Assembly: GCA_016927425.1 (NCBI GenBank)
Contig: JAFGMR010000077.1
Coordinates: 1-45,486, forward strand
Direction of reading: 5' to 3'
DNA length: 45,486 nt
Source: Methanotrichaceae archaeon
GTDB lineage: Archaea; Halobacteriota; Methanosarcinia; Methanotrichales; Methanotrichaceae
The notes under the pieces are model-generated. The model ran no database searches, was not told the origin of the DNA, and worked only from the letters and a program-made list of their open reading frames with translations. This document shows, piece by piece, positions 23,421 to 43,044 of this stretch. Position numbers and translations under genes: made by a program. Numbering within the stretch: position 1 is the stretch's first letter; every line of letters starts with the position of its first letter.

Positions 23421-24413
23421 ATGAAACTAACCTCGATCGTCCCCGTTTTCATGGCACTTGCCCTATGGCTGGGCTTTGCCTCGGCTGATGAGTACTTCAT
23501 CGTTGGATCCGAAGGCTTCGTTCCGGGCAGCAATGTGGACTATTTCAATACCTATGGATGTGGTGGAGCATATATTGCCTCTGGCTCCGGCGCTCTGGTA
23601 GCTCCAGTCCATCTGCCCCAGGGAGCGACGGTAACCGAGTTCAAAGTCTTCTTCTATGATAATTCCCAATTCGATATGACCGTCTATCTCGATTCCCAGA
23701 AAATGGCCTTATGCGGCTACAGTAGTATGGCAATGGTCAATTCGGCGGGAATTAGCGGATACGGATCTGCAATTGATAATACGATCTCCTCTCCGATAAT
23801 CGACAATACGCAAAAGAGCTACCACATTTATGCTTTCACCAACTCTTCGAGCTCCGATCTCAAGATAAAGGGTGCCCTGATCAAATATACGATGCCTCCT
23901 ACCTTGTCGACTCCCGATCCCTGGATCGCGATAGACGGCATGGGACGGATGCACTTCTTCGTGATAGGCCAGGATCATGCCCTCTGGGACAACATGGGCG
24001 GCAACTGGTATCCTCTTGGTGGGTATATCCTCTCGAATCCCTGTGCTGTGCAAAGGCCGGATGATCCGAACCACATTGTGATCGCTGTAAAGGCAGGAGA
24101 TGGATCGCTCTACATCAACGACCTGAACACGCTCTCGATGACCGGCGTATGGGTTGGGCTTGGCGGCTCGATCTCCTCTGCGCCCTTCGCAATGGACGCC
24201 GTCTCTTACCTGAGCACATCGGTGCGGGGTGCCGATGGCGCCCTTTGGGAGAACGGCATACCCCTTTGGGATCCAGGCGCTGCATCGTGGACCGGGCACG
24301 GAGGCCTGATCAGCGGAGCGCCTTCAGCTGCCTTTGCAGATGAAATGGCAGAGTACGATAACTCATCGCTTGTCGAGGAGGAGGGACGGATGGTCTTTAA
24401 TGAACCTGCTTGA
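23421..24413 (+). CDS. Exported protein with PLL-like beta-propeller repeats
   Basis: A 330-aa protein with a clear signal peptide (cleavage near ASA-DEY, about residue 22). Residues ~23-155 form a beta-rich N-terminal domain with two or three cysteines. From ~165 there are three repeats with blades like DHALWDNMGGNWYPLGG, DGSLYINDLNT...WVGLGG and DGALWENGIPL...WTGHGG. These resemble the blades of PLL/tectonin-type sugar-binding propellers, though three repeats are fewer than a closed propeller. A GGTGG ribosome-binding site lies about 7 nt upstream. Carbohydrate binding at the cell surface is an inference. Confidence 0.78.
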   Translation: MKLTSIVPVFMALALWLGFASADEYFIVGSEGFVPGSNVDYFNTYGCGGAYIASGSGALVAPVHLPQGATVTEFKVFFYDNSQFDMTVYLDSQKMALCGYSSMAMVNSAGISGYGSAIDNTISSPIIDNTQKSYHIYAFTNSSSSDLKIKGALIKYTMPPTLSTPDPWIAIDGMGRMHFFVIGQDHALWDNMGGNWYPLGGYILSNPCAVQRPDDPNHIVIAVKAGDGSLYINDLNTLSMTGVWVGLGGSISSAPFAMDAVSYLSTSVRGADGALWENGIPLWDPGAASWTGHGGLISGAPSAAFADEMAEYDNSSLVEEEGRMVFNEPA

Positions 24414-24492: not shown

Positions 24493-25896
24493 TTAGCCGA
24501 TATACCCGAGTTCCCCAGCCCTCCTGTAGGCCTCCTTTGACTGGGCCTCCAATCCCAGCTTTTCCAGAACCGCTCCGCGGTTATGCCAGAACTCCCCGTT
24601 AAGGGGATACGCCTGCCTCCCTTCGTCCGGATGCTCTATCGCGAGATCCAAGGCTGCAAGGGAATTTCGATAGGCAACGAGTGCCTCATCATCCCGGCCG
24701 AGGGCCTTCAGGGAGTCGCCCTTGCCCTTCCATGCATGGCCGCTCTCCGCATAGACCCCCTCTGGATAGAGCTCGATCGCCTTCTCGTAGGCCTCCAAGG
24801 CCGCCTCATATGATCCCATCCCCATGTATGCGTCTCCAATCCCCCTCCAGGCATCGTCTGCAAGCCGGGGATCTGCCTCCATGGATCGGTTGCAGGCCTC
24901 TATCGATAGGTCGTACTCGCCAAGCTTCGCAAGCAGCTTGGCCTTCCCGAGCAATGCCTGGGCCAGGTGGTATCGGTCCATAGGATCATCTGTGTAGTTC
25001 AGGTCTATCGCCTCTTGATAGAGGGCGCTTGCCTCTTCATACCGGCCGATGTTCATCAGTGCCCCGGCCTTGTTTATCAGGACATAGGCCAAGAAGGGGG
25101 TGCTCGTCGGAGCTATGTTGGATATCAGGCTGTCGTAGGCCTCGATCGCCCGGTCGTGCTCTCCTCTCGCCTGAAGAGCCTCCCCGAGAAGCATCCATGA
25201 GTCGTAGCTCATAGGATCGATCAGAGAGGCATTCTCGAAGGCCTCCAGGGCATCATCGTCACGGCCCATCTGGCGAAGGACAAATCCCCTCGATATCCAG
25301 GATCGGCCGAGGGATTCGAGATCGCCTTCGTCGCAGGTCCTTATGGCCTCCATCGATGCCTCAAGCGACTCGTTAAGACGGCCAATATTGACAAGGGCCG
25401 AGCTCTTCACCTCCCAGGCTCTGGTGTAGTTGCCATCGATATCGGTGGCGGAAGCCAAAGCCTCAAGGGACTGGTTGTAGTCCTGCATGAAATAGTAGTT
25501 CAATCCAATCCAGAACCATGCCTCAGGATCGTCTGAGCTGATCCTCGTCGCGTTCTGGTAGGCCTCGATAGACCGGTTGTATTCTCCAAGCAAGTTCAGC
25601 ACTTTTCCCTTGCCCATCCAGGCCCGGGCATCGCCTGGGGACAGGAGCAGAGCTTGATCATATGCATCCAGGGCCTCATCGTAGGAGCGGTTCTGATAAA
25701 GCGAAAGCCCAAGATCGATCAGGTCATCGGATGTCTTTCCTTCGGAGGTAGCCTGGCCGCCTTCTTCGGCAATCGCATGGCCTCCCAATACCAGCAGGCA
25801 GAGGAAGGCGGCAGCGGCCCCCCTTATGCCAGACCTTCGCCAGCCCTGACTCTCATAATCGATGAATGAATCTCTCATGATGGGTTGATTTATCAT
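24493..25896 (-). CDS. Exported TPR protein 1
   Basis: A 467-aa exported protein made almost entirely of TPR repeats. Residues ~20-43 form a signal peptide (GAAAAFLCLLVLGGHAIA-EE), followed by a short linker. About eleven TPR units then run from ~57 to the C-terminus, with typical hits such as YDEALDAYDQALLLSPGDA and YEAALEAYEKAIELYPEG. The frame continues upstream to 25983 but would overlap the next TPR gene. ATG 25896 lies 17-28 bp after a TATA box (25913-25924), so it is preferred; ATG 25878 is an alternative. There is no membrane anchor. It is the last of five exported TPR genes in tandem. Confidence 0.85.
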   Translation of the reverse strand: MINQPIMRDSFIDYESQGWRRSGIRGAAAAFLCLLVLGGHAIAEEGGQATSEGKTSDDLIDLGLSLYQNRSYDEALDAYDQALLLSPGDARAWMGKGKVLNLLGEYNRSIEAYQNATRISSDDPEAWFWIGLNYYFMQDYNQSLEALASATDIDGNYTRAWEVKSSALVNIGRLNESLEASMEAIRTCDEGDLESLGRSWISRGFVLRQMGRDDDALEAFENASLIDPMSYDSWMLLGEALQARGEHDRAIEAYDSLISNIAPTSTPFLAYVLINKAGALMNIGRYEEASALYQEAIDLNYTDDPMDRYHLAQALLGKAKLLAKLGEYDLSIEACNRSMEADPRLADDAWRGIGDAYMGMGSYEAALEAYEKAIELYPEGVYAESGHAWKGKGDSLKALGRDDEALVAYRNSLAALDLAIEHPDEGRQAYPLNGEFWHNRGAVLEKLGLEAQSKEAYRRAGELGYIG

Positions 25897-25912
25897 TCTC
25901 TTACCTATATCT

Positions 25913-25924
25913 CTAGATATATTT
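25913..25924 (-). promoter_or_regulatory. TATA box of exported TPR gene 1
   Basis: AAATATATCTAG on the minus strand, 17-28 bp before the ATG at 25896, in the 37-bp gap between the first two TPR genes. Confidence 0.45.
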
Positions 25925-25933
25925 TTCAAGTTC

Positions 25934-26656
25934 TCATAATACTTCTCCACTGGCCCTGGCGAAGGCTTCATCGGCCTCGGCATGACGCCCTAGCTTCTCG
26001 AGAAGATAGCCCTTGGTCATCCAGGCCGATGCGCTACTCGGGCAGAGATCGATTGCCATCTCAGATGCAGAAAGTGCCTCGTCGTATCTCTGCAGCTCCG
26101 CCAGAAGGATCGCCTTCATGAGCCAGGCAGCCTTGATCCTTTGCGTATAATTTAGCTCGATTACCTCCTCGTAAGCCGCAAGTGCAGCCTCCGCATTATG
26201 CATGTTGACGTAGTTCTCTCCTTTCAGGAACCATGCCTCACCGTCGGACGGATTCTTCTCAAGGGTCCGATTGAGAACATCAATCGCACTTGCGTAAGCC
26301 TGGTCGTCCTCACCCTGCCTGTTTAGGCCGCTCAAAGCCACCCCCTTGCCCTGCCAAGCTAAAGCGTCGTCTGAATCATCTTCGAGGATCTCGTTTGTGA
26401 TCTCCAGAGCTCTGTTGTATGAGTTCAAGGCCCAGTACTGCAATGCATGGCCTTTGTTGATCAATGCGTTGTAGTTATCCGGATCGATATCGAGTACCTT
26501 GTCGTAAGCCAAAACGGCATCCTCATAAGATCCATTCGCTGTTAGACCATAGGCTATATCCATCCAGTAGTCTGCGGTGTCCTCCTCTGCCACTGCAAAG
26601 TTGCCTAGCAGAACGAGCGTCAGAAAGCCAAGGGCGATCCCAGTCCTTGACCTCAA
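25934..26656 (-). CDS. Exported TPR protein 2
   Basis: A 240-aa exported TPR protein, the shortest of the five. A signal peptide (GIALGFLTLVLLGNFAVA-EED) covers residues ~6-23. It is followed by DYWMDIAYGLTANGSYEDAV, the same opening as paralogue 4, and about five TPR units. The start is a TTG at 26656. There is no in-frame ATG before an upstream stop, and GAGGG lies about 4 nt before the TTG. It ends DEAFARASGEVL without an anchor. The leader and first repeat suggest it arose by duplication within this cluster. Confidence 0.83.
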   Translation of the reverse strand: MRSRTGIALGFLTLVLLGNFAVAEEDTADYWMDIAYGLTANGSYEDAVLAYDKVLDIDPDNYNALINKGHALQYWALNSYNRALEITNEILEDDSDDALAWQGKGVALSGLNRQGEDDQAYASAIDVLNRTLEKNPSDGEAWFLKGENYVNMHNAEAALAAYEEVIELNYTQRIKAAWLMKAILLAELQRYDEALSASEMAIDLCPSSASAWMTKGYLLEKLGRHAEADEAFARASGEVL

Positions 26657-26736
26657 ATATCCCTCTCTTCTGCCAAATATTTTTTGTTTTCTCGTTCAAA
26701 TCACCTGTTTCAAGATCTCTCTAAAAATATGCTAGG

Positions 26737-27810
26737 CTAGCCTTTGTATCCGATCTCCTTCGCCCTGTCAAATGCCGCCTCTGCATCGTCCTGGCGGCCC
26801 AGCGCCTCCAGCGCCTCGCCCATCCATCGATACCTCCAGACGTTCGACGATTCAGAGTGCGCTTCTATCTCCTCCTCGAAGGCATCGACCGCCCGCTCGT
26901 ATGATAAGGCCGCCTCGTCATGCCTGCCCATTCCCTCAAGGGCGTCGGCTTTGAACTTCCAGAACTTCGCGACCTCCGGAAGCCAGGTGGTGTCGATCTC
27001 GTAGCGCTCTTCCGCCCGACCGTAGGCATCGAGGGCCTCATCGTGCCTCCCTAGGGCATCGAGGGCCTCACCCTTCCAGAGCCAGGTTCCCCCGGTCTGG
27101 GTTGGGCTCATGAGGTCGAAAGAGCGGACGAAAGAATCGTTGAAGATCTCAAGGGCTGTATCGCAGGCATCGATCGCCTCCTCGTACCTTCCAAGCTCAT
27201 AGAGGACGCATCCTTTGTTGGACCAGGCCGCAACCAGGCTCAAAGGATCGCGATCGGTAGATCCGAGCTCGATCGCCCTATCGTAGGCGCTGAGGGACTC
27301 GTTCCATTGGCCTTGCTCGAAGAATATAGCTCCCCTGCCCCGCCAGGCTCTGCTCTGCAAGATCCTTTCGTCTGGATCCTCGGAGACCTCGGCTGTTGCC
27401 TCATCGAAGATCGAGAGCGCCTCGGCCCGCCTTCCCATGACTGTGAGAAGCTCGGCCTTCTCGAGCTTCGCCCTCGTGTTCAGCGGATCGAGATCTATCG
27501 CCTCATCGAATGCCTCGATCGCCCGATCGTACTCGCCCAGATCCCGAAGCGCGATGGCCTTGTACCGCCAGGCCTCGACGTTTTCGGGATCGATGTCGAT
27601 CGTTTTATTAAAGGCCTCTACCGCTTCTTCCATAGAGCAGTTGAAGAGAAGCTCTTCGCCTCTTTCTAGCCAGTATCCCGTCTCGTTCTCCTGCGCCAAG
27701 GCAGAGCTGCAGAGCGTCGCCAAAGCGACGAGGGCAAGGGCGGATCTTGCCCATCCTACCGGCTTTGGCAGCCCGATGCGGGCCATCAACGATGCGGATT
27801 TTTCTTTCAC
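26737..27810 (-). CDS. Exported TPR protein 3
   Basis: A 357-aa exported TPR protein. The signal peptide is ARSALALVALATLCSSALA-QEN (about 21-39). It is followed by GYWLERGEELLFNCSMEEAV and about eight TPR units, several with insertions that lengthen the helices, ending AFDRAKEIGYKG. The start is GTG at 27810 with GGAG about 10 nt upstream; an in-frame ATG nine codons later is the alternative. The C-terminal form resembles paralogues 1 and 5 (ELGYIG, QLGYEG). Soluble extracellular scaffolding is the likely role, but no partner is identified. Confidence 0.84.
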   Translation of the reverse strand: MKEKSASLMARIGLPKPVGWARSALALVALATLCSSALAQENETGYWLERGEELLFNCSMEEAVEAFNKTIDIDPENVEAWRYKAIALRDLGEYDRAIEAFDEAIDLDPLNTRAKLEKAELLTVMGRRAEALSIFDEATAEVSEDPDERILQSRAWRGRGAIFFEQGQWNESLSAYDRAIELGSTDRDPLSLVAAWSNKGCVLYELGRYEEAIDACDTALEIFNDSFVRSFDLMSPTQTGGTWLWKGEALDALGRHDEALDAYGRAEERYEIDTTWLPEVAKFWKFKADALEGMGRHDEAALSYERAVDAFEEEIEAHSESSNVWRYRWMGEALEALGRQDDAEAAFDRAKEIGYKG

Positions 27811-27910
27811 TTATTCCCACTCCTGCTTCTTCCATCCATTCTTGGCCACAATGATTTTTGGGCTAGGGGCGGAAATCGAGCCCCGGCCTGCCTTTATCAT
27901 TCGGGTGAGG

Positions 27911-29701
27911 TTACGAAGGTTGATCCTCAAACTCTCCGGTTCCCCTCATCATCACTACGCCATCCGGCATGTTTTCAAATCCCAGAAACGAGACGTCCCT
28001 TCCCGACTCATCTCTCAAGGTGACGTTTGTGGCGGTATCGTTGAGGGCGATCTCGCTATTCATGAATAGGTTGGTCTCGGTCTCCTCGCCCGCTTGGAAG
28101 TGGACCCTAACCTTTCCCGCAGGCTCCAGGGTATATTCGGGAAGGACCACAGATCTCGTCTCATCATCGTCGACAACCAGTGTCCATCCTCCGAGGCTTC
28201 TTGCCTCATCGAGGTGGTTCTCGATCTCGACAAACTCGTCCCCACCTTCGGCGCTGATGTTGGTGAGGGCGATCATGCCTGCAAGGGGTGATGTGAATCC
28301 AAGCTCTTTAGCCCTGGCAAAGGCCACCTCGGCCTCATTTTCGCGGCCGAGATACTTCAGTGAATTGCCTTTCAAGTACCAAGTGTATCCATGCTGTGGA
28401 CCAAGCTCGATTGCCTCCTCGAAGGCTGCCAGGGCCTCCTCGTCCCTTCCAAGGTTCATGAGGATTAGGCCCTTCAATTGCCAGTATTCAGGATTCTCTG
28501 GATTTATATCGAGAGCCCTTTCACAGGCTTCCAGTGACTGGTTATACCTACCAAGGTTGGGACCGAGAATCCGAGCCTTGGCAAGCCAGGCGATCGAATT
28601 CTGAGGATTGATATCGGTGGCGTTATTCAATGCATGGAGGGCATCTTCATAAGATTCGGCTACCTGTAGCTCTCGTCCCTTCTCGATCCAGTAGCCTGAG
28701 GTCTCCTCCGGCGTCCAATAGGCTGCGAACTTATCCAGCGTTCCAGTAGAGTTCCTCAAGGTCAGATTTCCGGCAACGTCATCGAGGGCGAGATCTCCCA
28801 TAAGATAGACGTCTGTCTCGTTGCTCTCGCCTTCGCCGAGATGGAACCTGATCCGTTCACCGGGACCGAGGGCGAAGTCGGGAAGGACGACCGACTCCTT
28901 ACCGTCGATGGTCAGGATCAAGCCTTCGAAGGTCTGGGCCTCGTTTCCGCTGTTGGCCATCTCGATTAACTCGTCCTCGCCCAGGGATACGACGTTGGTG
29001 ATGGCCAGAGACAAGGCGGACGTCGTCTCATACTCAAGCTCCCTAGCTCTGGCATACGCCGTCTCCGCCTCGGCCCGGCGGCCAGCCTCCTTTAGAGCAT
29101 CTCCCTTGAGGCTCCAAGCCTGGGCATCTTCCGGATTTGCCTGGAGGGCACCGTCAAATGCCAAGACAGCTTCGTCGTATCTGTGTAACTCGCTTGCGAG
29201 GATGACTCCTTTCATCATCCAGGCCATCTCGTATTCGGGATCGATATCGGTAGCATTGTCAAATGCTCTAACTGCCTCTTCGAAATTGCCTACATTGTGA
29301 AGGAGCAATCCCTTCTCAGACCAGGCGATGCAATTCTGGGGATCGGTTTTCAGCGTATTGTTGGTGATATCCAGGGCCTTTTGGTACGCTTCGATAGCCT
29401 CATCTGTTCTGTTTAACCGCCCAAGTGAATTGGCTTTGTTGATCCAGAAGATGCCGTTCTCTGGATCAATCAAAATGGCCTTATCGTAAGCCTCTATCGC
29501 CTCCTCGTAAGATCCATTGGCGCTCAGGCCATATGCGATATTAAGCCAGTATTCCGATGAATTCTCAACTGAATTCTCTTCCTCTGCCTGGGCAGGGATG
29601 CAAAGCGACGCCAAGGCCAGAAGGACGATGGCAAACCTGGCCCCATCTCCCCATCTCAACAGCCCAGCAAGGGCTGCAGTCGATCTTCCCATTTTGAACA
29701 T
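27911..29701 (-). CDS. Exported TPR protein 4 with two lamin-tail-like domains
   Basis: A 596-aa exported protein with an internal duplication: signal peptide (ARFAIVLLALASLCIPAQA), TPR block A (~50-230), beta domain A (~235-330), TPR block B (~340-485) and beta domain B (~488-585). The beta domains share the order LAITNVVSLGEDELIEMAN / IALTNISAEGGDEFVEIEN, then LxLxxDxxxSVVLPxxxLxPxxxxRxHFxxGE, then a DLALDD or EIALND strand. This matches the lamin-tail (LTD) fold found in exported prokaryotic proteins. GTGAGG lies about 8 nt before the ATG. The alternation suggests a spacer-and-binding architecture for surface attachment; the ligand is unknown. Confidence 0.84.
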   Translation of the reverse strand: MFKMGRSTAALAGLLRWGDGARFAIVLLALASLCIPAQAEEENSVENSSEYWLNIAYGLSANGSYEEAIEAYDKAILIDPENGIFWINKANSLGRLNRTDEAIEAYQKALDITNNTLKTDPQNCIAWSEKGLLLHNVGNFEEAVRAFDNATDIDPEYEMAWMMKGVILASELHRYDEAVLAFDGALQANPEDAQAWSLKGDALKEAGRRAEAETAYARARELEYETTSALSLAITNVVSLGEDELIEMANSGNEAQTFEGLILTIDGKESVVLPDFALGPGERIRFHLGEGESNETDVYLMGDLALDDVAGNLTLRNSTGTLDKFAAYWTPEETSGYWIEKGRELQVAESYEDALHALNNATDINPQNSIAWLAKARILGPNLGRYNQSLEACERALDINPENPEYWQLKGLILMNLGRDEEALAAFEEAIELGPQHGYTWYLKGNSLKYLGRENEAEVAFARAKELGFTSPLAGMIALTNISAEGGDEFVEIENHLDEARSLGGWTLVVDDDETRSVVLPEYTLEPAGKVRVHFQAGEETETNLFMNSEIALNDTATNVTLRDESGRDVSFLGFENMPDGVVMMRGTGEFEDQPS

Positions 29702-29761
29702 CTTTTATCCCTCACTCTCACTTCATCGTCTGAAGATTTCGGCAAAAAAAATGGACAAGGT

Positions 29762-31231
29762 TCAGCCCTCGTACCCCAGCTGTTGAGCAACGTATAGCGA
29801 CATGGAGGCGTTGTAGACCTGGCCGAGCGCCCTCTGGGCCTCCCCCTTTCCATACCAGGCATTGCTCCAATGAGGACCAAGCTCGATTGCCATATTGTAG
29901 GCATCCAGAGCCTCCCGATCTCTGCCCAAAGCCCTAAGGGCATCGCCCCTGCCAATCCATGCGGTGGTATCGACTGTATGGGGCTCGATGCCGGAAGATA
30001 CAGCGAGGGTTTGGTCGTAGGCCTCCAATGACTCGTCGTACCTGCCAAGCTCGTAGAGGGCTCTCCCCCTCATCTGCAGCAGGCTGACGTCACCGGGATC
30101 TTCCAAAATGGCCTTTTCATAAAGCTCCAGCGCTCTCTGGAAGGCATCTATTGCCTCATCTCGCTTGCCGGTCTTGTTAAGGGCAGATCCCTTGGAAAGC
30201 CAGGTCTGCGCAAGCTCCTCTGTCTCATCTTTGGAGGTCAGCTCGATTGCCTCGTCATAGGCCTCCAGGGATTCGTCATACCTCTTCATCTCGACGAGGA
30301 GGCTTGCTTTCCACTGCCAGCTGCCGACGTCATCGGGATTCTGCTCAATCGCCTCGTCAAATGCTGCCAGAGCCTCATCGTCTCTGTCGAGTTCGGTCAA
30401 GACAAAGGCCTTGAAATGCCACCATACGCTGCTCTTGGGATTCAGCTCCAGCGATCTATTGATTGCTTCCAGGGCGTCTTCCATTCTCCCCGCAGCTGCC
30501 AGATCCTCGCTCTTGGCGGCATAGCCTAGCGCCAGCTCCGCGGTGTCGCTTGCGGGTATCAGCTCGATGGCCTTGTCGTAGGCCTCAACGGACTCGTTGA
30601 TGTCTCCTATAGCGCTTATGACCTCGGCCTTTCTCCACCAGACGTTGTAGTCCAGCGGTTTGAGCCTCGTTACCTCGTTGTAGGCCTCATGGGCCTCATC
30701 CCACCGGCCGAGGCTCAAGAGGATGTTGGCCTTTCCCATCCAGGCGTCGGCGTCCTCTGGATCCTCATCGATCCTCTGGTCGAAGGCAGCCAGGGAAGCT
30801 TCATACGCCTGGGTGGCCTCTTCTTGTCTGTTCAGGCGTCTCAGAATTTGGGCCTTGTTCTGCCAGGCCTCGGCATCGGCTGGATTTGCATCGAGATCTT
30901 CATCCAGAAGGGCGAGCGCCCTTTCGCATGTCTCTATGGATTCGTTCACCTTTCCCACGACAAGGAGGTCGAGAGCCTTTCGGATGAGGATCGTCTCATT
31001 CTCAGGATCGATATTTAGGGCTTCATCGTAAGCGGAGATCGCCTCCTCGATGGAGCCGTTGTGGTACAACTCCTGGGCCTTGTTCATCCAGTAGTCGGTG
31101 GTCTCCTCCTGTGCCATGGCGGAGATGCACAGCACCGCCAGGGCCGCGAAGGCTAAAGCGAATCTCGCGGCTCCCGTCCCAAACTTCAATAGCTCAATGT
31201 TGATTGCAGTCGATCTGCCTTTCTCGTTCAT
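29762..31231 (-). CDS. Exported TPR protein 5
   Basis: A 489-aa exported TPR protein. It begins NEKGRSTAINIELLKFGTGA, shares the GRSTA leader with paralogue 4, and has the signal peptide ARFALAFAALAVLCISAMA-QEE (~22-41). About twelve TPR units follow, from DYWMNKAQELYHNGSIEEAI to the C-terminus. Repeats such as YDESLEAYDEAIELTSKDE are highly regular. A GGGGTGAG ribosome-binding site lies about 7 nt before the ATG. An upstream four-codon ORF that starts with the same ATGAACGAG lies at 31240-31254. This is the first gene of the TPR tandem in transcription order. Confidence 0.85.
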   Translation of the reverse strand: MNEKGRSTAINIELLKFGTGAARFALAFAALAVLCISAMAQEETTDYWMNKAQELYHNGSIEEAISAYDEALNIDPENETILIRKALDLLVVGKVNESIETCERALALLDEDLDANPADAEAWQNKAQILRRLNRQEEATQAYEASLAAFDQRIDEDPEDADAWMGKANILLSLGRWDEAHEAYNEVTRLKPLDYNVWWRKAEVISAIGDINESVEAYDKAIELIPASDTAELALGYAAKSEDLAAAGRMEDALEAINRSLELNPKSSVWWHFKAFVLTELDRDDEALAAFDEAIEQNPDDVGSWQWKASLLVEMKRYDESLEAYDEAIELTSKDETEELAQTWLSKGSALNKTGKRDEAIDAFQRALELYEKAILEDPGDVSLLQMRGRALYELGRYDESLEAYDQTLAVSSGIEPHTVDTTAWIGRGDALRALGRDREALDAYNMAIELGPHWSNAWYGKGEAQRALGQVYNASMSLYVAQQLGYEG

Positions 31232-31303: not shown

Positions 31304-32179
31304 TCACTCTTCCCATCCGCTCAAGCTCGCTTGCATCATGACGAATCGTTCGTTTGCGCTTCCCGGAAGATCCAAGGCAAAGAGGAAGCCGTTCCAGAAA
31401 AGGCCGTCATCGTCCTCAAAGGTCCAAGTGCTCCAGGCGGAAGGACCGCTCTCCCCACTATCCTGAAGGGTCCAGTCGGCGGCCTTGAGCAGATCGCCAT
31501 AGTGGATCGAGAGGGCGGAGCCATTCATCTCGGTCTCCAGGGTCGCGGATATCCCGACGCTTGATCCGCCGCTTGATGTAAAGCTCTCTCGAATGTGTTT
31601 GGCTCCGGCCGGGCTCGTAAGCTTGGGGATTGGCTCTAGCCAGTCCTCCAACTCCGTCGCTTGTCTACAGGGCGAGTATTGGGGATCGGAGTTTACATTC
31701 AGGCGGAGATCCGTTCCCCCCTCAACCGGATGGGCGATAATAGTCAGAGATGGGTTCTTCCTGCCCTGGCAGAAGGTCGCAGTAGCTGCGCTAGGCGCAA
31801 ATCCTCGGGACGTTCCCGGGATCTCCGTCTCGGTCCAGTTCGCCGAGGTCATGCGCTCTCGATAGAATTCTATCGCCTCGGATGGGGCCATCCTCGTGTC
31901 AAGAACGATCTCAATTGTCTCCCCATCCCTGACTGCGCTTCCAACGATCCTCGCCCCCACTGGAATGGGGGGATCGAGGGGCAGATCCGCTGGAAGCCCT
32001 TCCAGAATGATCTCTACATCCACGAGCTCTGAGCTTCCTGAGTAGGAAGGCTCCAAAAGCCTCGTTGCCAGCTCCTCGAAGGAAGGCTGGCTGGAGATCG
32101 CCGGTCCAGCTTGCTCGGAGGAGGATCCGAGCCCTATGAGGGCAGAGAGCACTATAATTGTCCAAAAAGTCCCTCTCAC
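31304..32179 (-). CDS. Exported protein with two related alpha/beta modules
   Basis: A 291-aa exported protein with a signal peptide (about 1-19). Two modules of similar plan follow. Module 1 (~70-165) has PPIPVGARIVGSAVRDG, then a T-M-A-P-S-E-A-I-E-F-Y-R-E-R-M segment and SANWTETE. Module 2 (~190-285) has GAKHIRESFTSSG, then SALSIHYGDLLKAADWTLQD. The pattern, a strand with a PxGA motif, a helix ending near FYRERM and a GW-like segment, recurs in many exported proteins of unknown role. The start is GTG 32179, with GGAGGT about 10 nt upstream lying inside the end of a small upstream ORF. Function unknown. Confidence 0.78.
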   Translation of the reverse strand: MRGTFWTIIVLSALIGLGSSSEQAGPAISSQPSFEELATRLLEPSYSGSSELVDVEIILEGLPADLPLDPPIPVGARIVGSAVRDGETIEIVLDTRMAPSEAIEFYRERMTSANWTETEIPGTSRGFAPSAATATFCQGRKNPSLTIIAHPVEGGTDLRLNVNSDPQYSPCRQATELEDWLEPIPKLTSPAGAKHIRESFTSSGGSSVGISATLETEMNGSALSIHYGDLLKAADWTLQDSGESGPSAWSTWTFEDDDGLFWNGFLFALDLPGSANERFVMMQASLSGWEE

Positions 32180-32938: not shown

Positions 32939-33595
32939 TCAGAGGCAGGGTAGCCAGTCGACGCTTATTGAGCCGCAGGTGCTGTTGCCCCAGAGCTGGA
33001 TGAACTTCTCGACGGAGAATACGCCTGTCAGGTCCTCGATCGATCGGCCCCACTCGCTATGCCTGCCCTTGGAGCTTACCATAGGATCCCTTGAGAGCCA
33101 CCCGATGTGGGCGACGCCTATCACCTGGCTGTTGAAGCTCGCCTCGAGGATGCCTGTGCAGCAGTAATCGAACTTGCCGGAGTCGTAGAGGCCGGTCCTG
33201 ATCTCAGTGCTCTTTTGCAGGTACTCTGCGTGGGTGTAGGACTCCGTTACCACTGCACCTATATCGTAGTTTGCTGCGCAGACTTTGTCCGTCCATTTCC
33301 GGTCGTAGGTCCCTGTCTGGTAGCTTACAGGGAAGTACTCTAGCTCAGTCTCCTGGGTGAAGTTGATGTGATCATTGTCCACCTCGAGCTCATAGCTATC
33401 GTAGAAGCGACCGCTGCCGGAAACTCCCTCGACGAACTTCTGGCCGGCATATCCTGAAGCTGTCTCGCCCATCAGCTCATGGCTGCGGTAGCCAACCCCC
33501 TTGACGACCGATCTCTCGTAGATGTAGCTCGTCGCAGCGTCCGAGCCGATCAGCAGAAGTGCAAGGAGCAGAGCTGCCCCAAGTCGCAACCTCAA
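32939..33595 (-). CDS. Exported protein of unknown function
   Basis: A 218-aa exported protein with a clean signal peptide (LRLGAALLLALLLIGSDA, cleavage near 20). The mature part is beta-rich with aromatic residues and several cysteines (KVCAAN, YCCTG, STCGS, a final PCL), which may form disulfides outside the cell. No domain is recognised. The start is TTG at 33595, with GAGGA about 8 nt upstream and a stop immediately before it in frame; TTG 33589 is possible. It stands alone between two long gene-free regions. Confidence 0.75.
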   Translation of the reverse strand: MRLRLGAALLLALLLIGSDAATSYIYERSVVKGVGYRSHELMGETASGYAGQKFVEGVSGSGRFYDSYELEVDNDHINFTQETELEYFPVSYQTGTYDRKWTDKVCAANYDIGAVVTESYTHAEYLQKSTEIRTGLYDSGKFDYCCTGILEASFNSQVIGVAHIGWLSRDPMVSSKGRHSEWGRSIEDLTGVFSVEKFIQLWGNSTCGSISVDWLPCL

Positions 33596-34080: not shown

Positions 34081-34118
34081 AATGGATAATGTATGGGCCC
34101 TTCAAGCCTTCATGGAAA

Positions 34119-34129
34119 GAAATATAAAG
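34119..34129 (+). promoter_or_regulatory. TATA box of the transglutaminase-like gene
   Basis: GAAATATAAAG about 24-34 bp before the ATG at 34153, the spacing of a leaderless transcript; it supports this start over the frame beginning at 34093. Confidence 0.55.
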
Positions 34130-34152
34130 ATCACGAGCAATATAGATCGCCC

Positions 34153-35487
34153 ATGCGCTGCATCCCGATCGTCCCTCTCATCATCTCGCTTTTGTTCATG
34201 AACCTCGCAGGCGCCGACGAGATTCCATTCGTCTTCGGCAATGAATCCCTCGACGTCGCCAGCCTCGATCCCTCAGAGATCGAGGAGCTCATGTCCTCCT
34301 CCGAGCTGCTCGCAGGAGTTCCCCCCATCGTCGCCCTCGATGAGAATGCAACGATCGAGGTTGCAGCTCCGGCAGGGCCTGGCGCCCGTGGGGCGACGAG
34401 GACGATTCTTCTGAGGGATATCAAGGCCGAGATCAACAGCAAGATCGACGTCGACAATCCAATAACCAGGAAGAAGGCCGTGATCATCGCGGCAGACTAC
34501 CCGGGAGACCATACGATCGATCAGATATGCTCGATATACGAGTACTTGAAGGGCGGATGGCACTACGTCCCGGACCCGAGGGGGATAGATTACTTCTTCC
34601 CTGCTAGCGAGTCGCTAGATATCGGGGAGCAGGCCAACTGCGCCGGAGCCGGCGACTGCGATGACTTCGCTATATTGATGGCAACGCTGATAGAGTCGAT
34701 CGGGGGAACGACGCGGATAGTGCTTGCGGACAACGTAAGCGGCGCCCATGCCTATGCTGAGGTATATCTGGGGACGCTCGATGCAGCAGATCACACCGTA
34801 AAGGAGGTCGTGGACTGGCTGAGGGAGCACTATGCAACGGAGAATATCTTCGTTCATATCAACTCCGATAACAAGGATGTCTGGCTAAACCTCGACTGGT
34901 CGGCGGACAATCCCGGTGGCCCGTTCTATCGCGCAGAGGGCCACGTCATATTGAGCATAAGAGACCAGTACGGAAAGACGCCTTTGCAGCTTCCGGCTGA
35001 GCCCAGGCCTGCTGCGAAAAGGGTGACAAACACCGCGGAGAACAGCCCGCCGCAGATAATATCGCTATTGCCCGACCTCCCAAGCCCCCAGGAGGAGGGG
35101 ACGCCTGTTACCTGGCGGGTCTCGGCAGTCGATGAGGAAGGCGATTCTCTGCAGTTCAGGTTCCTGCATAGCGGTCCTGGGGCGGACTGGGTGGACAAGA
35201 CCGGCTGGACAGATTCCGACTCCTGGGTCTGGACGAGCACTGAGAACGATGTGGGGATAAACGAGGTCAAGGTCTTCGTAAGGGATGGACCAGACCCAAT
35301 TCACGGGGACTATGACGACTCGAAGAAGGCCATGTTCATAATAACATATCCGATGAACCCAGGTGGCAGCAGCAGCTCCTCAAGCAGCAGCCGTTCCATG
35401 AGCAGCGGCTCTACTCGAATAAGCGGAGGAAGCTTCAGCAGCAGCTCGATGAGCTCAGGCTCGATGAGCATATCGACCGGCTTCTGA
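34153..35487 (+). CDS. Exported transglutaminase-like protein with Ig-like domain and Ser-rich tail
   Basis: A 444-aa exported protein with a signal peptide (about 1-19). A transglutaminase/protease-like core at ~100-265 has CAGAGDCDDFAIL with the nucleophile C169, a His in SGAHAYAEVYL (H199) and an Asp in VWLNLDW (D248). From ~300 an Ig/PKD-like module starts with NSPPQIISLLPD and contains VSAVDEEGDSLQF. The last ~40 residues are mostly Ser, Gly and Met (for example SSSSSSSSRSMSSGST). The fold occurs in proteases, amidases and true cross-linkers, so activity is not certain. It may trim or cross-link surface proteins encoded nearby. Confidence 0.83.
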   Translation: MRCIPIVPLIISLLFMNLAGADEIPFVFGNESLDVASLDPSEIEELMSSSELLAGVPPIVALDENATIEVAAPAGPGARGATRTILLRDIKAEINSKIDVDNPITRKKAVIIAADYPGDHTIDQICSIYEYLKGGWHYVPDPRGIDYFFPASESLDIGEQANCAGAGDCDDFAILMATLIESIGGTTRIVLADNVSGAHAYAEVYLGTLDAADHTVKEVVDWLREHYATENIFVHINSDNKDVWLNLDWSADNPGGPFYRAEGHVILSIRDQYGKTPLQLPAEPRPAAKRVTNTAENSPPQIISLLPDLPSPQEEGTPVTWRVSAVDEEGDSLQFRFLHSGPGADWVDKTGWTDSDSWVWTSTENDVGINEVKVFVRDGPDPIHGDYDDSKKAMFIITYPMNPGGSSSSSSSSRSMSSGSTRISGGSFSSSSMSSGSMSISTGF

Positions 35488-36387: not shown

Positions 36388-39300
36388 CTATAGCCATCCA
36401 GCCATCGATTCTGACCACATCGAATCCGACCAGAAACCGGGATTGTCGATGACGAAGGGATCCATGGCAATTGGGATTCCGTCCATATATACCTCTACCA
36501 GCCATACGCCCGGCATATACTCCGGTGGATGGCCCTTGATGCCGAGCCCCGAGTAAGCGACCTGCCCGTCTGTGGAGCCAGCCTGGGGTTCGATCAACGA
36601 CGACTGGGACTGGTATAGCATCCCATCGGGGGAGATCCAGTTCCACTCCACCAGGCGAGGGGAGGAGACCTGCCCGAGGTTGAGCCAGGAGATGACATAT
36701 GGGTCCTCGGACGAGAACTCATATGTCTCCTCGATGGGTTGATCGTTCTGGACCCCGGTGCATAGGGTGTGATATATCTCTTGGATCATGCCGTCGACCA
36801 GAGGTCCGCCATCCTCCGCCACAACGGTGATCATCGTACCGGTCGACGGTCCTTGTCCGTCGAATTGGCCATCGTTCGATCCATCATCTGCCGGGGTCCA
36901 GCGTGAGGTTTGACCCTGCTGCGTCCCTGATTCCCCACGAGCAAGGTCTCCTCCTTCAGCCGTGATCAAGGGACCTTTCCAGGTGGCGAGGGGGAAGTTG
37001 TCCACACCGAGTCCACCTGGGATCTCGAAGGGCCGGTCGCATATGCCGTCTCCGTTGGCATCTCTGCATTGCCCGTAGTAGTTGCCCAGGGTTCCGTTGT
37101 CCCAGCGATTTATGCTCAAGAGATCGGTGTCGAAGTCGTAGGCGTTATGGGCGCGGTTATCCACCAGCCGGTTCATGTAGATGAGGTTATCGTAGCATGT
37201 GAGATCCAGGAAGATCCCGTAGTCGTTCATCGTTGCGCTGTTGTTGATTATCCTGTTGTTTAGAGAGAGGTCGCTCAAGCATATCCCAAAGCCGTTCTCG
37301 TTTGCGTTGCTATCCCTGACCGTGTTGTTGCTCGCCTGATAGAGGTATATGCCATGCTCCAGGTTGTTATCCACAACGTTATCGACGATGACGTTGTCGT
37401 TGGAGGCTACCTTGATCCCCGACTCCATGGCGTTCGTGGCTGCGAATCCCTCGACGGTGATGCCATCGGCCGCTAAGGTGATTGCGCTTCCTCTGAAGGA
37501 GGCGTCCACGACGGGCCGGCCCTCGCCAGTGTCGACGCCTATGAGGGTTAGGCCCTTTCCGATCACGACGTTCTCGGAATAGGTCCCGCTCGACACCCGT
37601 ATTGTATCGCCAGCCGTTGCAGCGTCCACCGCCTCCTGAATGCTTCTGTAGGCGCAATCGCCCTCGGGGCAGACATCGACCACCGCCTCAACCGTCTCTC
37701 CTGGCCCACCTTCTGCAGCCTCAGCACTTATCTGGAAGGACCATGTGCTGGAGTTCCGGTTGCCGGAATTGTCCTCGAGGGCGACCTCCAGGTCGTGGTT
37801 GCCATTCGCCAATGGCTCGGTGGGCGTATACCAGACCTTCGTTGAGAGGACAGTTGAGTTCCCGGTTACATCGACTCCATCTAGCATCAGACGCACTGAA
37901 TCCGGATCGACCCCAGATCCAGCATCCGCTAAAGATGCGCTGACAAGCGGCCTTTCATAGACAAGCGTTGAGCCATCCGGCGGCTGAAGGTCCTCGATCG
38001 ACGGGGGAGTGAGGTCGCCCGAGATCTGGAAGGTCCATCTGGAGGTGTTCTCGTTCCCCTGTCTATCCGATGCCCTCACTTCTACGAGATGCTCGCCTGG
38101 TGCGAGGTCGTCCGCCGGCGTGTACCATACCCGAGCGGGCACGATTCGGGCCTCGGTTGTTACATCAGTTCCATCGACTGATACCGAGACCGACTTTGTG
38201 TCTATCCCGGAGCCTGTATCATTGAGATCGGCACTTATGAGGGGTCGCCGATATGACAATGTCGATCCGGTAGGCGGCTGAAGCCGGCTTATAGACGGCG
38301 GATCGCTATCGCTGTCATCGGATGCGACGATTAGCGTTTTTGATGCCTCGTTGTTAGAGGGGTTTGAGTCGTCAGCTCTTGAACTCACGACGACCTTGAT
38401 CTCATGGCTGCCAACACCGGCTGTCCACTCGGTATCCACGGCTACGCTCGAGAACTCCGGTATGTAAGGGATGGTGACGTCGTCTATCAGATCGACCCCA
38501 TCCAGGAACCGAACCTGGACATCGCCCAGGCCGACGCTTCCCTGGTTGTGGACCTGGGCCTCTATTGTCACGTTCTCGCCGATTCTCGGCTGCAGGTTCG
38601 AGATCCTAAGCTCCTCAGGGGATACCAGCAGATCTGACTCGTGCTCGACCGTCCCGCTCAGGTTGGCAACGATCCTATCAGCCTCCTCCTGGTCGTGGGC
38701 GACGACCGCCATATCCTTCTTCTTGACCATGAAGTCGATCGAGTAGCCCTCGAGGGGGACGTAGTATCCCCTGTTCATGCCGACGACATCGAGGACGAGG
38801 GAGTTTTCGGCAGTGCCAACCTCTGCATAGTTGACGAACGTTGGATCGACCTCGAATGTGTAGCGGCCCTGGGGAACGGTTCCATTGATGCTGCCGATAA
38901 GGTGTCCGTTCAGCATGACTTTGGTGTCGAAGGGTTGATAGTAATCAGGCGCCTCACGAGCGAACCGGAGCGTCACGAAGACCTTCTCGACGTTTCTCAC
39001 AGGCGAGCAGAGGAAGTCCAGGTCGGATGTGAAGGTGTTCTTCAGAGGGGCATGGTTTATGCAGCTCTTGACCGTTATCGTCTGAGTCTCCTTGAGACCT
39101 GCCTTGGATCCCTTCTCCGCCTTCGCCTGCTCCTCGGAGACGCGCGTCCAGTCGGCGTAGTTGCTGTAGACGTTTGATGCCCAGCCGAGCACTGTGAGGC
39201 TTCCTGCGAGCTTTCCCTCCTTGAACGTCTTTAGGTAATGCCCCTTCAGCGTCGTGAACTGCCCTCCAAACGACTTTGCAGTCTTCGTTGCCGGGCCGAT

Positions 39301-42300
39301 GATCGTTTTACCGGTATTCGGATCGATCATCACGAACTCGGGCACCATCATCTCGCCCTTGAGGTTCTTCACGGCCTTGATGAAGTTCCACTCCTTCATG
39401 CCATGTCTGAGATCGTTGCCCTTCGAGTAGTCGAGAATCGGATCGAGGGACAGCTCGCCCGCTCCTCTCACGCCGGTTGTGTAATCCCCTCTGCAGAGGT
39501 TGTTTACGGTATCGACCATCCCCATAGCGGTGTTGAACCCAGGCACGAATCCGGCGTAGCACTTGATGACCACGCCTACCTTGTTGTGCGGAGTGAGCAT
39601 CCCCTCATTCCAGAAGATCTTCCAAGTCTCACCATCGACGAAGGCCCCGGGATCGCATATCAGCTCATAGACGTCGGAGAAGAAGAGGACGTAGTCGTCC
39701 ATCTCGACCTTGATCTTGAAGCCTTCGATTCGCTCGCCGTCCGAGTCGTATACGGGAACGGGAACATCCACATACAAAGGAACGTACTCCTCGAAACGGA
39801 CCTCTTCGACCTTATGGTACAGCGACGTTCCCGATCCGTCTCGCACGTCCACCCTGAGGGTGTCAGTCAAATTCCTGTCTGATATAATGGCATATGTGAA
39901 TATGTACTGGGAGAGGTTCTCGTCCGGCATGACGTAGAGGAGGCGCATGGCCTTATGCGGCTCGCCCTCTTCGAGGCTGTTTGAGACGGTGACCTTCGCC
40001 ATCTGCCCTCCATCGACGGGGAAGGGAAGCTCGTATGTGTAGTCATTGAGCTGGCTTATGTCCGCCTCTCGCCAATCGAAGCGGATCTCCCTCTCTCTAG
40101 ATGTTGCGATTCCCTGTGACGACTGGGTGGCAATCGTTGCCGTATAGTTGCCAGGATCTGCATAGCCGAGGTCGAAGGTGATTTCATCTCCCTCACAAGA
40201 TCCGATCACCTCCTGATAGCTGTAGTTCCCCCAGTGTCTAAGGTACAGAATTGGGATGGCATCATCGGCGAGGCCATCGATCCTCGCCGTGATCTTGAAC
40301 GGAGGAGACTCGAGCGTCACCGGATCATCGCCTGCAAGGTCGAATGTCTCGTTGGCGTCAGAAGCGCTCTGCCACTCGATCGCCTCGTGGTCGATCGTCC
40401 TCGATGGGGTAGGATCGACCGAGAACCTTCGCTCCTCGGTCGAGGACTCGAAGCCCTCGACGGTTGCGCGATATGTGTAATCGCCGAGAGGTCCGGATAT
40501 GACGAAGCCAGTCTGCCCGAAGATATCGGTCTCAGCACGGATTGTCTCGTTTGATCCAGCACCCACAAGGTCAAGGAGAACGGATGCCTTAGAGGCGGGC
40601 TTTCCATCCTGCTCGACTTTTACCTTTACCTGGGCTAGAAAGGCGGTTGTGCTCGAGTCCCCGGAGCGGATTGTGTAGGATACAACCTCTCCTCCCGAGG
40701 GATTGGTGTTTGCGATTCCGTCGAAGTCGTACTCGGGATCGAACTCAATCGTCATTCGCGGGATCTCTCCAACGAACACCCGCATCCCATCGGGGACGTT
40801 GAACTCAAGGGGAAGCTCTCTCTCCTCTCCAGCAACATAAGCGGTAATCGTGCCTCTTGCCCCTGTGAAGCCCTCGGTCAGAATTGGAACTGCCAGGAAC
40901 TCCAGGCTCTCTCCCGATCCGAGATAGGCGTGGTCCAGCGTCGGCTGGAAGAGGAGGAGATCCTTGAGCTCAGAGCTTGCGGCAACCCTGAGATCGGTTA
41001 TGGGGTCGCCATCGTTCGTCAGTTTAATCGTCTTTGCCAGCGTATGGGGATCCTCGCTCACTTCTTCCAACTCGAAGTCGATCACCGGTACGTGGACGTC
41101 GAGATGTATGTAAGCGAGGTCGGTTATGGGCTCCGCGTCCAGGTTGGTCAGGCCAAGGAGTATCGTGTAGTTCGTAGATTGTGCATCTTGGGCGTGGAAG
41201 ACCAGGCGCACCTCTTTTCTCTCGCCAGGGAAGAGGGCTATCCTCTGGTCCATCGAGCCCTCTCCGACGAAGTTTATGGCAAGGTCGCTTGGAACGTTCG
41301 ATACGTTCAAAAGAAGCTCATGTGGCTCGTCGTCGGTGTTCTCGACGGTGATCGAACGCTCCTGGTTGTAGTCCCTCTCTATGGTGAACTCGTAGCTCCT
41401 CTGTGGGAAGCTTATGCCGTTATCCACGAGGATCTGTCTTGTGTCGCTCGTCGTTTCGTTTCCATTCGCATCCGACCTCACATAGTACTCGTAGAGGGTG
41501 TTTCTGTCAAGGTCACCGACAACGATCTTGTGCTCCCGTACGACAGGACCTGTGATCTGCCGAAACTCCTCCTCTCCTTCCGCTCTTATGAAGAGATCCC
41601 CGCTGCTCTCAACAGGCGTCCTCCAGCTTACAAGCAACTCGTTCGAGCCTGTCCTGGTGCTATCCAGGGGAAACAGGTCGATTAGGAGAGGGGCTGATGC
41701 GAGATCGAGCTTTGCCTCTGCATCGCGGTATGTTCCGAGGTTGGTCGAGTTTACTTGGATCGCGAAGGTGTAGTTGCCTGGACGTGCATCCTCGGGGATT
41801 GTAACCGTGAGGGGGACCTCCGCCTCCTGGCCAGATGAGAGGTTGATGGACTTGTCCATGGATACCCATTCGCTTCCAGGGCCGCTTGCCGAGATCGTAA
41901 AAGCATCGCCCATCCCCTGTCCGTTTGTGATCCTGAGGCGATACTCATCGATTGCACCCAGGCTGGTCTCTATGCGATCTGGGGAGAGCGAAATCCTCCA
42001 TCTCTCATCCTGGCCCGAGAGGGTGACGACATCGATCCTCACAGTGGCTGTTGCGTTTCTCCCCTCGTCGTCGGAAACCCTGAGGCCCACAAGGCGCTCG
42101 CCCTGCGTCCTCCATCCTTCGTAGGTATAAGTCGGATCTGTGACGCTTCTGTCGTATACGCCATCTCCATCCAGGTCCCACTCATAGGAGATGATGTTCC
42201 CTACAGACGACGATCGAGAGGCATCAAGCAGAACAATTGTTCCGGCGAGTACGATCTGGTCGAGGCCTGCATGGGCAATGATCCCCGCAGTTCCCCCGAA

Positions 42301-43011: not shown

Positions 43012-43044
43012 GGGCAAGATCACCATATATCATTCATTATCCAT

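Follow-up and report, generated by a model that had tools for sequence, protein, structure and literature searches.

Lamin-type immunoglobulin-like (Ig) domains are mostly discussed for the nuclear lamina and for some exported enzymes. The ORF at 27911-29701 of the window (the whole stretch of 45,486 nucleotides analysed here, contig JAFGMR010000077.1 of a Methanotrichaceae archaeon, genome G000) raises the question of how two lamin tail domains (LTD) came to be joined with tetratricopeptide repeats (TPR) in one archaeal protein, and what role such a protein could play. A first-pass annotation had described it as an exported protein in which TPR and LTD-like domains alternate twice, and as a modular surface adaptor made by internal duplication. 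The features of the locus are listed in Table 1.

Table 1. Domains of the TPR-LTD-TPR-LTD protein and the TPR gene array that contains its gene (window coordinates).
Feature	Position	Strand	Remarks
TPR-LTD-TPR-LTD exported protein, whole ORF	27911..29701	-	596 aa, ATG start
N-terminal export signal, residues 1-40, putative cleavage site	29582..29701	-	hydrophobic 14-mer mean 2.62, then small-x-small
TPR block 1 (TPR1), five repeats, residues 45-226	29024..29569	-	Pfam, repeat periodicity, AlphaFold model
LTD1, residues 229-331	28709..29017	-	below Pfam cut-off alone; 39% identical to LTD2
TPR block 2 (TPR2), four repeats, residues 334-472	28286..28702	-	Pfam, repeat periodicity, AlphaFold model
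LTD2, residues 475-580	27962..28279	-	over Pfam cut-off; lamin Ig fold in model
Row of five exported-looking TPR genes	24493..31231	-	hydrophobic N-termini in all; Pfam TPR
Array gene 1 from low end, TPR	24493-25983	-	
Array gene 2 from low end, TPR	25934-26656	-	
Array gene 3 from low end, TPR	26737-27810	-	
Array gene 4 from low end, the TPR-LTD-TPR-LTD gene	27911-29701	-	
Array gene 5 from low end, TPR	29762-31231	-	

TPR-type matches are numerous among the best 25 of the 41 Pfam families matched by this ORF (TPR_2, E 3.7e-45). Nine tandem 34-residue helix-turn-helix repeats are found, with units starting at residues ~50, 84, 125, 159 and 194 in the first block and ~336, 370, 405 and 439 in the second. 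The full-length AlphaFold model (built from three sequences only; mean pLDDT 71.1, pTM 0.38) folds each TPR block into paired helices (pLDDT by tens mostly 72-96) and forms strands in each LTD, and the top fold matches of the whole chain are TPR proteins. The twofold alternation of TPR and LTD within one protein is thus borne out by the Pfam matches and the model. An assembly artefact is rejected: the same order is present in G012, a separate assembly (68% identity), and G007 and G013 also contain two LTDs with TPRs in between. The coiled-coil rod and CaaX end of nuclear lamins and intermediate filaments are missing from the ORF, in which the signal, TPRs and LTDs take up the chain and the C-terminus reads EDQPS. 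A promoter and terminator scan, covering sigma-70 types only, gave no excess over shuffled sequences.

The Pfam model of the Lamin Tail Domain (PF00932) matches the whole protein in two stretches (E 2.5e-13, 50.8 bits vs the cut-off of 34.3). Scored as its own place, LTD2 exceeds this cut-off (37.3-37.6 bits), and LTD1 falls under it (20.2 bits, E 0.0012). At E<=1, PF00932 is matched by 7/7 LTDs of one alignment containing the window and two relatives (best 9.3e-12). LTD1 and LTD2 are identical in 35/89 aligned columns (39%), and their alignment score of 178 is far above that of 1000 shuffles of LTD2 (mean 29.8, sd 5.2, maximum 60), so that the similarity of the two beta domains proposed in the first-pass annotation is confirmed. 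A PDB sequence search with the profile of the seven LTDs returned nine matches at E<=10, all weak (E 0.53-1.2) and all nine lamins. The AlphaFold model of LTD2 reached a pLDDT of 68.5 (51-57 in the other four models). In Foldseek, lamin Ig domains fill ranks 1-14 for this model (E 2.6e-4 to 4.1e-2); in VIA, rows 1-12 are all lamins (Z 6.0-9.2, rmsd 2.2-4.0, 83-93 aligned residues), the next row having a Z of 4.7. The comparison of the predicted structure with lamin Ig domains in both programs upholds the proposed LTD fold for LTD2. A lamin-type Ig fold is therefore supported for the LTD2 model, and LTD1 is assigned to it through its similarity to LTD2.

LTD2 resembles PF00932 proteins both in its profile and in its fold match to the Ig domains of lamins A/C, B1 and B2. 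The archaeal protein differs from these lamins in that it is apparently exported, acidic and devoid of the lamin rod, carries the LTD twice and is fused to TPRs. The two LTDs are highly acidic, with a computed pI of 4.05 and charges at pH 7 of -13 and -19. Another frame of the same genome (345 residues, C48:40435-41205; L003, L004) contains two LTD matches in tandem.

Export was assessed by a crude, home-made test, which requires an N-terminal hydrophobic 14-mer with a mean hydropathy >=1.8 followed by small-x-small. In the ORF a hydrophobic stretch starts at residue 23 and is followed by AQAEE. The test was passed by all 20 TPR-LTD frames possessing an N-terminus (lowest value 1.80, G013); 4 of 24 frames were dropped from this count, their N-terminus being removed by a contig end. 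As a control, 13/34 hand-picked genes of the window passed, including 2/21 of those below 23 kb. The claim of export is supported by this hydropathy test. The mature chain contains 13 N-glycosylation sequons vs 3.95 expected, a number reached in 0/2000 shuffles. In the hand-picked set of 34, sequon density is 1.25-2.18 per 100 aa for the five array genes and <=0.73 for the 21 genes below 23 kb. From these sequence features we infer that the protein is exported, glycosylated and located at the cell surface. Against this reading, a C-terminal membrane segment was not found, the best 18-mer near the C-terminus having a mean hydropathy of 0.51.

The TPR array is flanked on both sides by other exported-looking genes (23421-24413, 31304-32179, 32939-33595, 34093-35487 and 36388-43026). 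The product of 34093-35487 has a transglutaminase-like core according to Pfam, and that of 36388-43026 (2212 residues) has PKD, CARDB, Ig-like and NosD beta-helix matches. The gene at 32939-33595, ~3.2 kb upstream of the TPR-LTD gene, encodes a protein of ~218 residues without a Pfam match, counterparts of which are located directly 3' of the TPR-LTD gene in two relatives (L007:7726-8493, L008:7938-8603).

The closest named relatives are a Methanosarcinales MAG, Methan_01 (68%, best segment), and Methanothrix harundinacea UBA1 (60%). PF00932 is matched at E<=1 in 49/50 genomes of the window's family and in 7/14 control genomes. The family's own LTD profile at <=1e-8 matches 47/237 genomes of the class, 46 of them among the 50 of the window's family, many of the frames being short. 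For the fusion itself, 392 genomes of the phylum, taken from a larger set, were searched with a profile of the TPR+LTD junction of the protein's own family (E<=1e-12, <=10 candidates scored per genome), and 19 of them gave matches. Only in G000, G008, G026 and G015, all of the window's family, do matches start inside the TPR repeat (profile position <=12), while in 5 genomes outside this family the LTD matches start at position >=36. Among these 392 genomes of the phylum, to which the search was confined, the TPR+LTD junction was seen in the window's family only; since the profile is family-own, the threshold strict and the number of candidates limited, other fusions could be missed.

The loci examined contain 24 frames with both TPR and LTD, from 21 genomes. 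Two LTDs are present in 5 of the 24 (G000, G007, G012, G006 and G013; in G006 unknown bases just before LTD1 make the front part uncertain). The other layouts are TPR-LTD, LTD-TPR (G010), TPR-LTD-TPR (e.g., G026, G036, G030) and beta-helix-TPR-LTD (G011). These shuffled architectures strongly support the description of the protein as modular. One exported-looking frame (L086:4506-6893) combines a NosD-type beta-helix, TPRs and an LTD2-type domain. A third LTD type forms one clade of 9 rows (L008:11013-12299 and frames in L130, L132, L133, L134, L135, L136, L137 and L140), whose members have a common motif (RHG...SSLNW-like) within ~50 residues upstream; in the one protein searched, the stretch from TPR to LTD is without a Pfam match. 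The plasmid search returned 44 records, all below 60% identity and none covering 80% of the query; among the 5 rows listed, 3 are annotated as TPR, 1 as CHAT and 1 is unannotated.

In the open-licence PMC literature, neither a TPR-LTD fusion nor a shuffled TPR/LTD family appears in the titles or abstract starts among the matches listed, and nothing was found that joins lamin tail domain, archaea and tetratricopeptide, or Methanothrix, sheath and tetratricopeptide. LTD and TPR are known domains; their alternating exported fusion and its shuffled family were not met in these listings.

How the two TPR-LTD units arose could be approached through the histories of the separate segments. An ancient internal duplication of a TPR-LTD unit in one gene, with later divergence and with single-LTD relatives arising by loss, is possible, if somewhat doubtful. 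The LTD1-LTD2 identity given above, far beyond that of shuffles, favours it, as does the TPR2 block, whose score with TPR1 (260) exceeds its scores with the four remaining array proteins (168-219). Over 29 columns, the last TPR and linker before the LTDs share 59% identity. For the final repeats of the two blocks (194 and 439) identity is 50%; for repeats 159 and 370 it is 41% in register, whereas either one stands out of register with the other repeats (8-17%). Against this account stand the LTD trees. Two LTDs below 60 bits were left out of the first tree (34 rows reduced to 32) and three long-branch rows out of the second (29 rows). In the 29-row tree LTD1-type and LTD2-type domains form separate clades (support 100/97 and 99/99), both of which include single-LTD proteins, and LTD1 joins single-LTD proteins from another genus (89/89) rather than LTD2. 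The support of the LTD2 clade is 93/81 when the three long rows are kept (32-row tree). A single clade of LTD1 and LTD2 lowers the log-likelihood by 10.5 units and is mildly rejected (AU p 0.027; the group was defined once the tree had been seen).

The history of TPR1, unlike that of the rest of the protein, also speaks against a simple duplication. TPR1 is 54-64% identical to TPR blocks of 8 genomes of genus g8. In 6/8 of these (G026, G027, G029, G031, G034, G035) the ORF ends with the TPR1-like block, in G032 more TPRs follow, and in G036 a different LTD follows. Identity to the G012 counterpart is 62%. TPR1 reaches at best 32-37% in G006, G007, G008, G011, G013 and G049, compared with 60-81% for the LTD or TPR2 segments in common; in G010 the values are 43% for TPR1, 70% for LTD1 and 50% for TPR2. 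Without gap columns, the low TPR1 identities in these seven genomes amount to 33-48%. An exchange of the head, giving TPR1 a history different from that of the rest of the protein, is therefore favoured from the aligned sequences.

Silent sites of the window were compared with those of four relatives. The fraction of fourfold sites that differ is 0.32-0.39 for the two LTDs (25/78, 29/81, 30/84, 31/79), 0.53-0.63 for TPR2 and 0.62-0.66 for two or three housekeeping genes. The LTDs are below housekeeping genes at p 1e-6 to 2e-5, whereas for TPR2 vs housekeeping genes p is 0.25-0.71; LTD vs TPR2 gives p 0.0087, 0.017, 0.063 and 0.025 in the four relatives, which are not independent, the window sequence being common to all. 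G008 was omitted for LTD1, having none of that type, and the GTPase has no match in G006 and G013.

Also against the duplication, LTD1 lacks an excess distance between genera. Its fourfold difference is 0.27-0.40 between genera and 0.25-0.40 within genus g7, and its amino-acid identity is 73-81% and 72-85%, respectively; these between- and within-genus tests were picked after looking, with small numbers and with the window gene common to the comparisons. aRF1 and SepRS differ at 0.60-0.67 between genera and 0.18-0.50 within. The four other array genes (0.41-0.57 between, 0.11-0.38 within) show a higher value between genera in all four, LTD2 is intermediate (0.29-0.44 and 0.23-0.38), and TPR2 follows the species pattern (0.53-0.63 vs 0.12-0.49). 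A recent exchange of LTD1 DNA between genera is favoured by this pattern. Constraint on silent sites of LTD1 is disfavoured, its divergence within g7 being like that of housekeeping genes. GC3 is likewise disfavoured as the cause of the low LTD divergence (0.69-0.76 for the LTDs in three genomes; two housekeeping genes of the window have 0.71-0.72). Nor are the LTDs alone in their low silent divergence. Compared with G012, array genes 29762 (75/170 fourfold sites differ vs 299/484 in housekeeping genes, p 7e-5) and 24493 (71/138, p 0.03) are also below housekeeping genes, 29762 not being significantly different from the LTDs (p 0.09), and 25934 (44/77) is not below them (p 0.45). Consequently, part of the effect may be due to array-wide codon use.

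The claim of internal duplication is thus poorly supported in its simple form, recent duplication in place being rejected as too simple in view of the separate LTD clades, the TPR1 history and the between-genus pattern of LTD1; an old duplication followed by swapping would be compatible with the data and may be the origin of both TPR-LTD units. In the preferred mechanism, exported TPR and LTD modules would have been fused and swapped, and this, more than simple local duplication, would have produced the architecture, LTD1 DNA having apparently passed between genera. LTD1-TPR2-LTD2 would represent a conserved stem and TPR1 an exchangeable head.

As to function, the protein could be an exported, probably N-glycosylated surface adaptor of a Methanothrix-like methanogen, built by domain shuffling; this reading has about an even chance of being right. 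The acidic Ig-like LTDs would serve as docking modules to the sheath, the S-layer or some other surface protein, and partner proteins would be bound by the TPRs. LTDs of prokaryotic exported proteins have been proposed as membrane tethers, but in a deletion test the LTD of Vibrio cholerae Xds was dispensable for membrane association and nuclease activity (PMC6746945), which weakens the role of the LTD as an anchor. LTDs occur in extracellular proteins or proteins acting on extracellular DNA (Xds, the ComA-like Hlac_1867, Hvo_1477), as in the putatively exported protein described here, and ExeM is likewise an LTD-bearing exported prokaryotic protein. Since LTDs are present in exported nucleases and ComA-like proteins, the ORF could encode a protein that binds or processes DNA outside the cell. 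LTDs are described in proteins of DNA metabolism from archaea and bacteria (PMC5118699, PMC4486849), the latter source proposing DNA binding by LTDs. However, Xds, Hlac_1867 and Hvo_1477 bear nuclease or metallo-beta-lactamase domains, whereas the ORF has only TPRs and LTDs. No nuclease domain is present among the best 25 of the 41 Pfam families (E<=1), the TPRs and LTDs leave no room for one, and the acidity of both LTDs makes DNA binding unlikely. This alternative is very improbable.

A secretion or assembly chaperone, whose TPRs would bind exported surface proteins while the LTD positions it at the cell surface, is unlikely. NCBIfam matches of the ORF include the TPR assembly factors PrsT, MamA, PilW and LcrH, the neighbour 29762 exceeds the cut-off of the secretion-chaperone model SctY (83.8 bits vs 70), and the genes adjoin other exported-looking genes. 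However, the matches of the PrsT/MamA/PilW/LcrH type are under their curated cut-offs, only a generic TPR end-of-group model being passed, and lineage-specific expansion with changing heads is unlike a conserved chaperone.

Besides lamins, the surface adaptor could be compared with exported proteins of its own lineage. The exported TPR array proteins resemble it in signal type, TPR blocks and tandem arrangement, most of them being without LTDs in the loci examined. The Methanothrix sheath is built of multi-copy proteins, some with Ig-like caps (PMC11576556), and a TPR scaffold with Ig-like modules for docking would suit such a sheath. The sheath (SH) proteins described there are also multi-copy, domain-varied and exported, and belong to the same archaeal order; they differ in having an amyloid-like core of two six-stranded beta sheets, for which the domains of the ORF leave little room. 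The words 'lamin' and 'TPR' are absent from the main text of this survey.

Extended to the whole group, this reading would mean that the tandem TPR arrays of Methanothrix-like archaea store a combinatorial repertoire for the cell surface, where LTDs are DNA cassettes exchanged between genera by intragenic recombination and joined to changing TPR heads, altering the recognition of partners, syntrophs or viruses by the filament. Such a repertoire is speculative and rather improbable, and it is weakened because silent divergence is low in adjacent TPR genes too.

In this lineage, lamin-type Ig domains recur as a structural element in a family of archaeal surface proteins. The host group consists of methanogens akin to the filament-forming, sheathed Methanothrix, important for methane production and syntrophy. 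Through the histories of the individual segments, domain shuffling between genera of archaea becomes open to testing, and the family supplies specific candidate proteins for docking at the cell surface and for the binding of partners.
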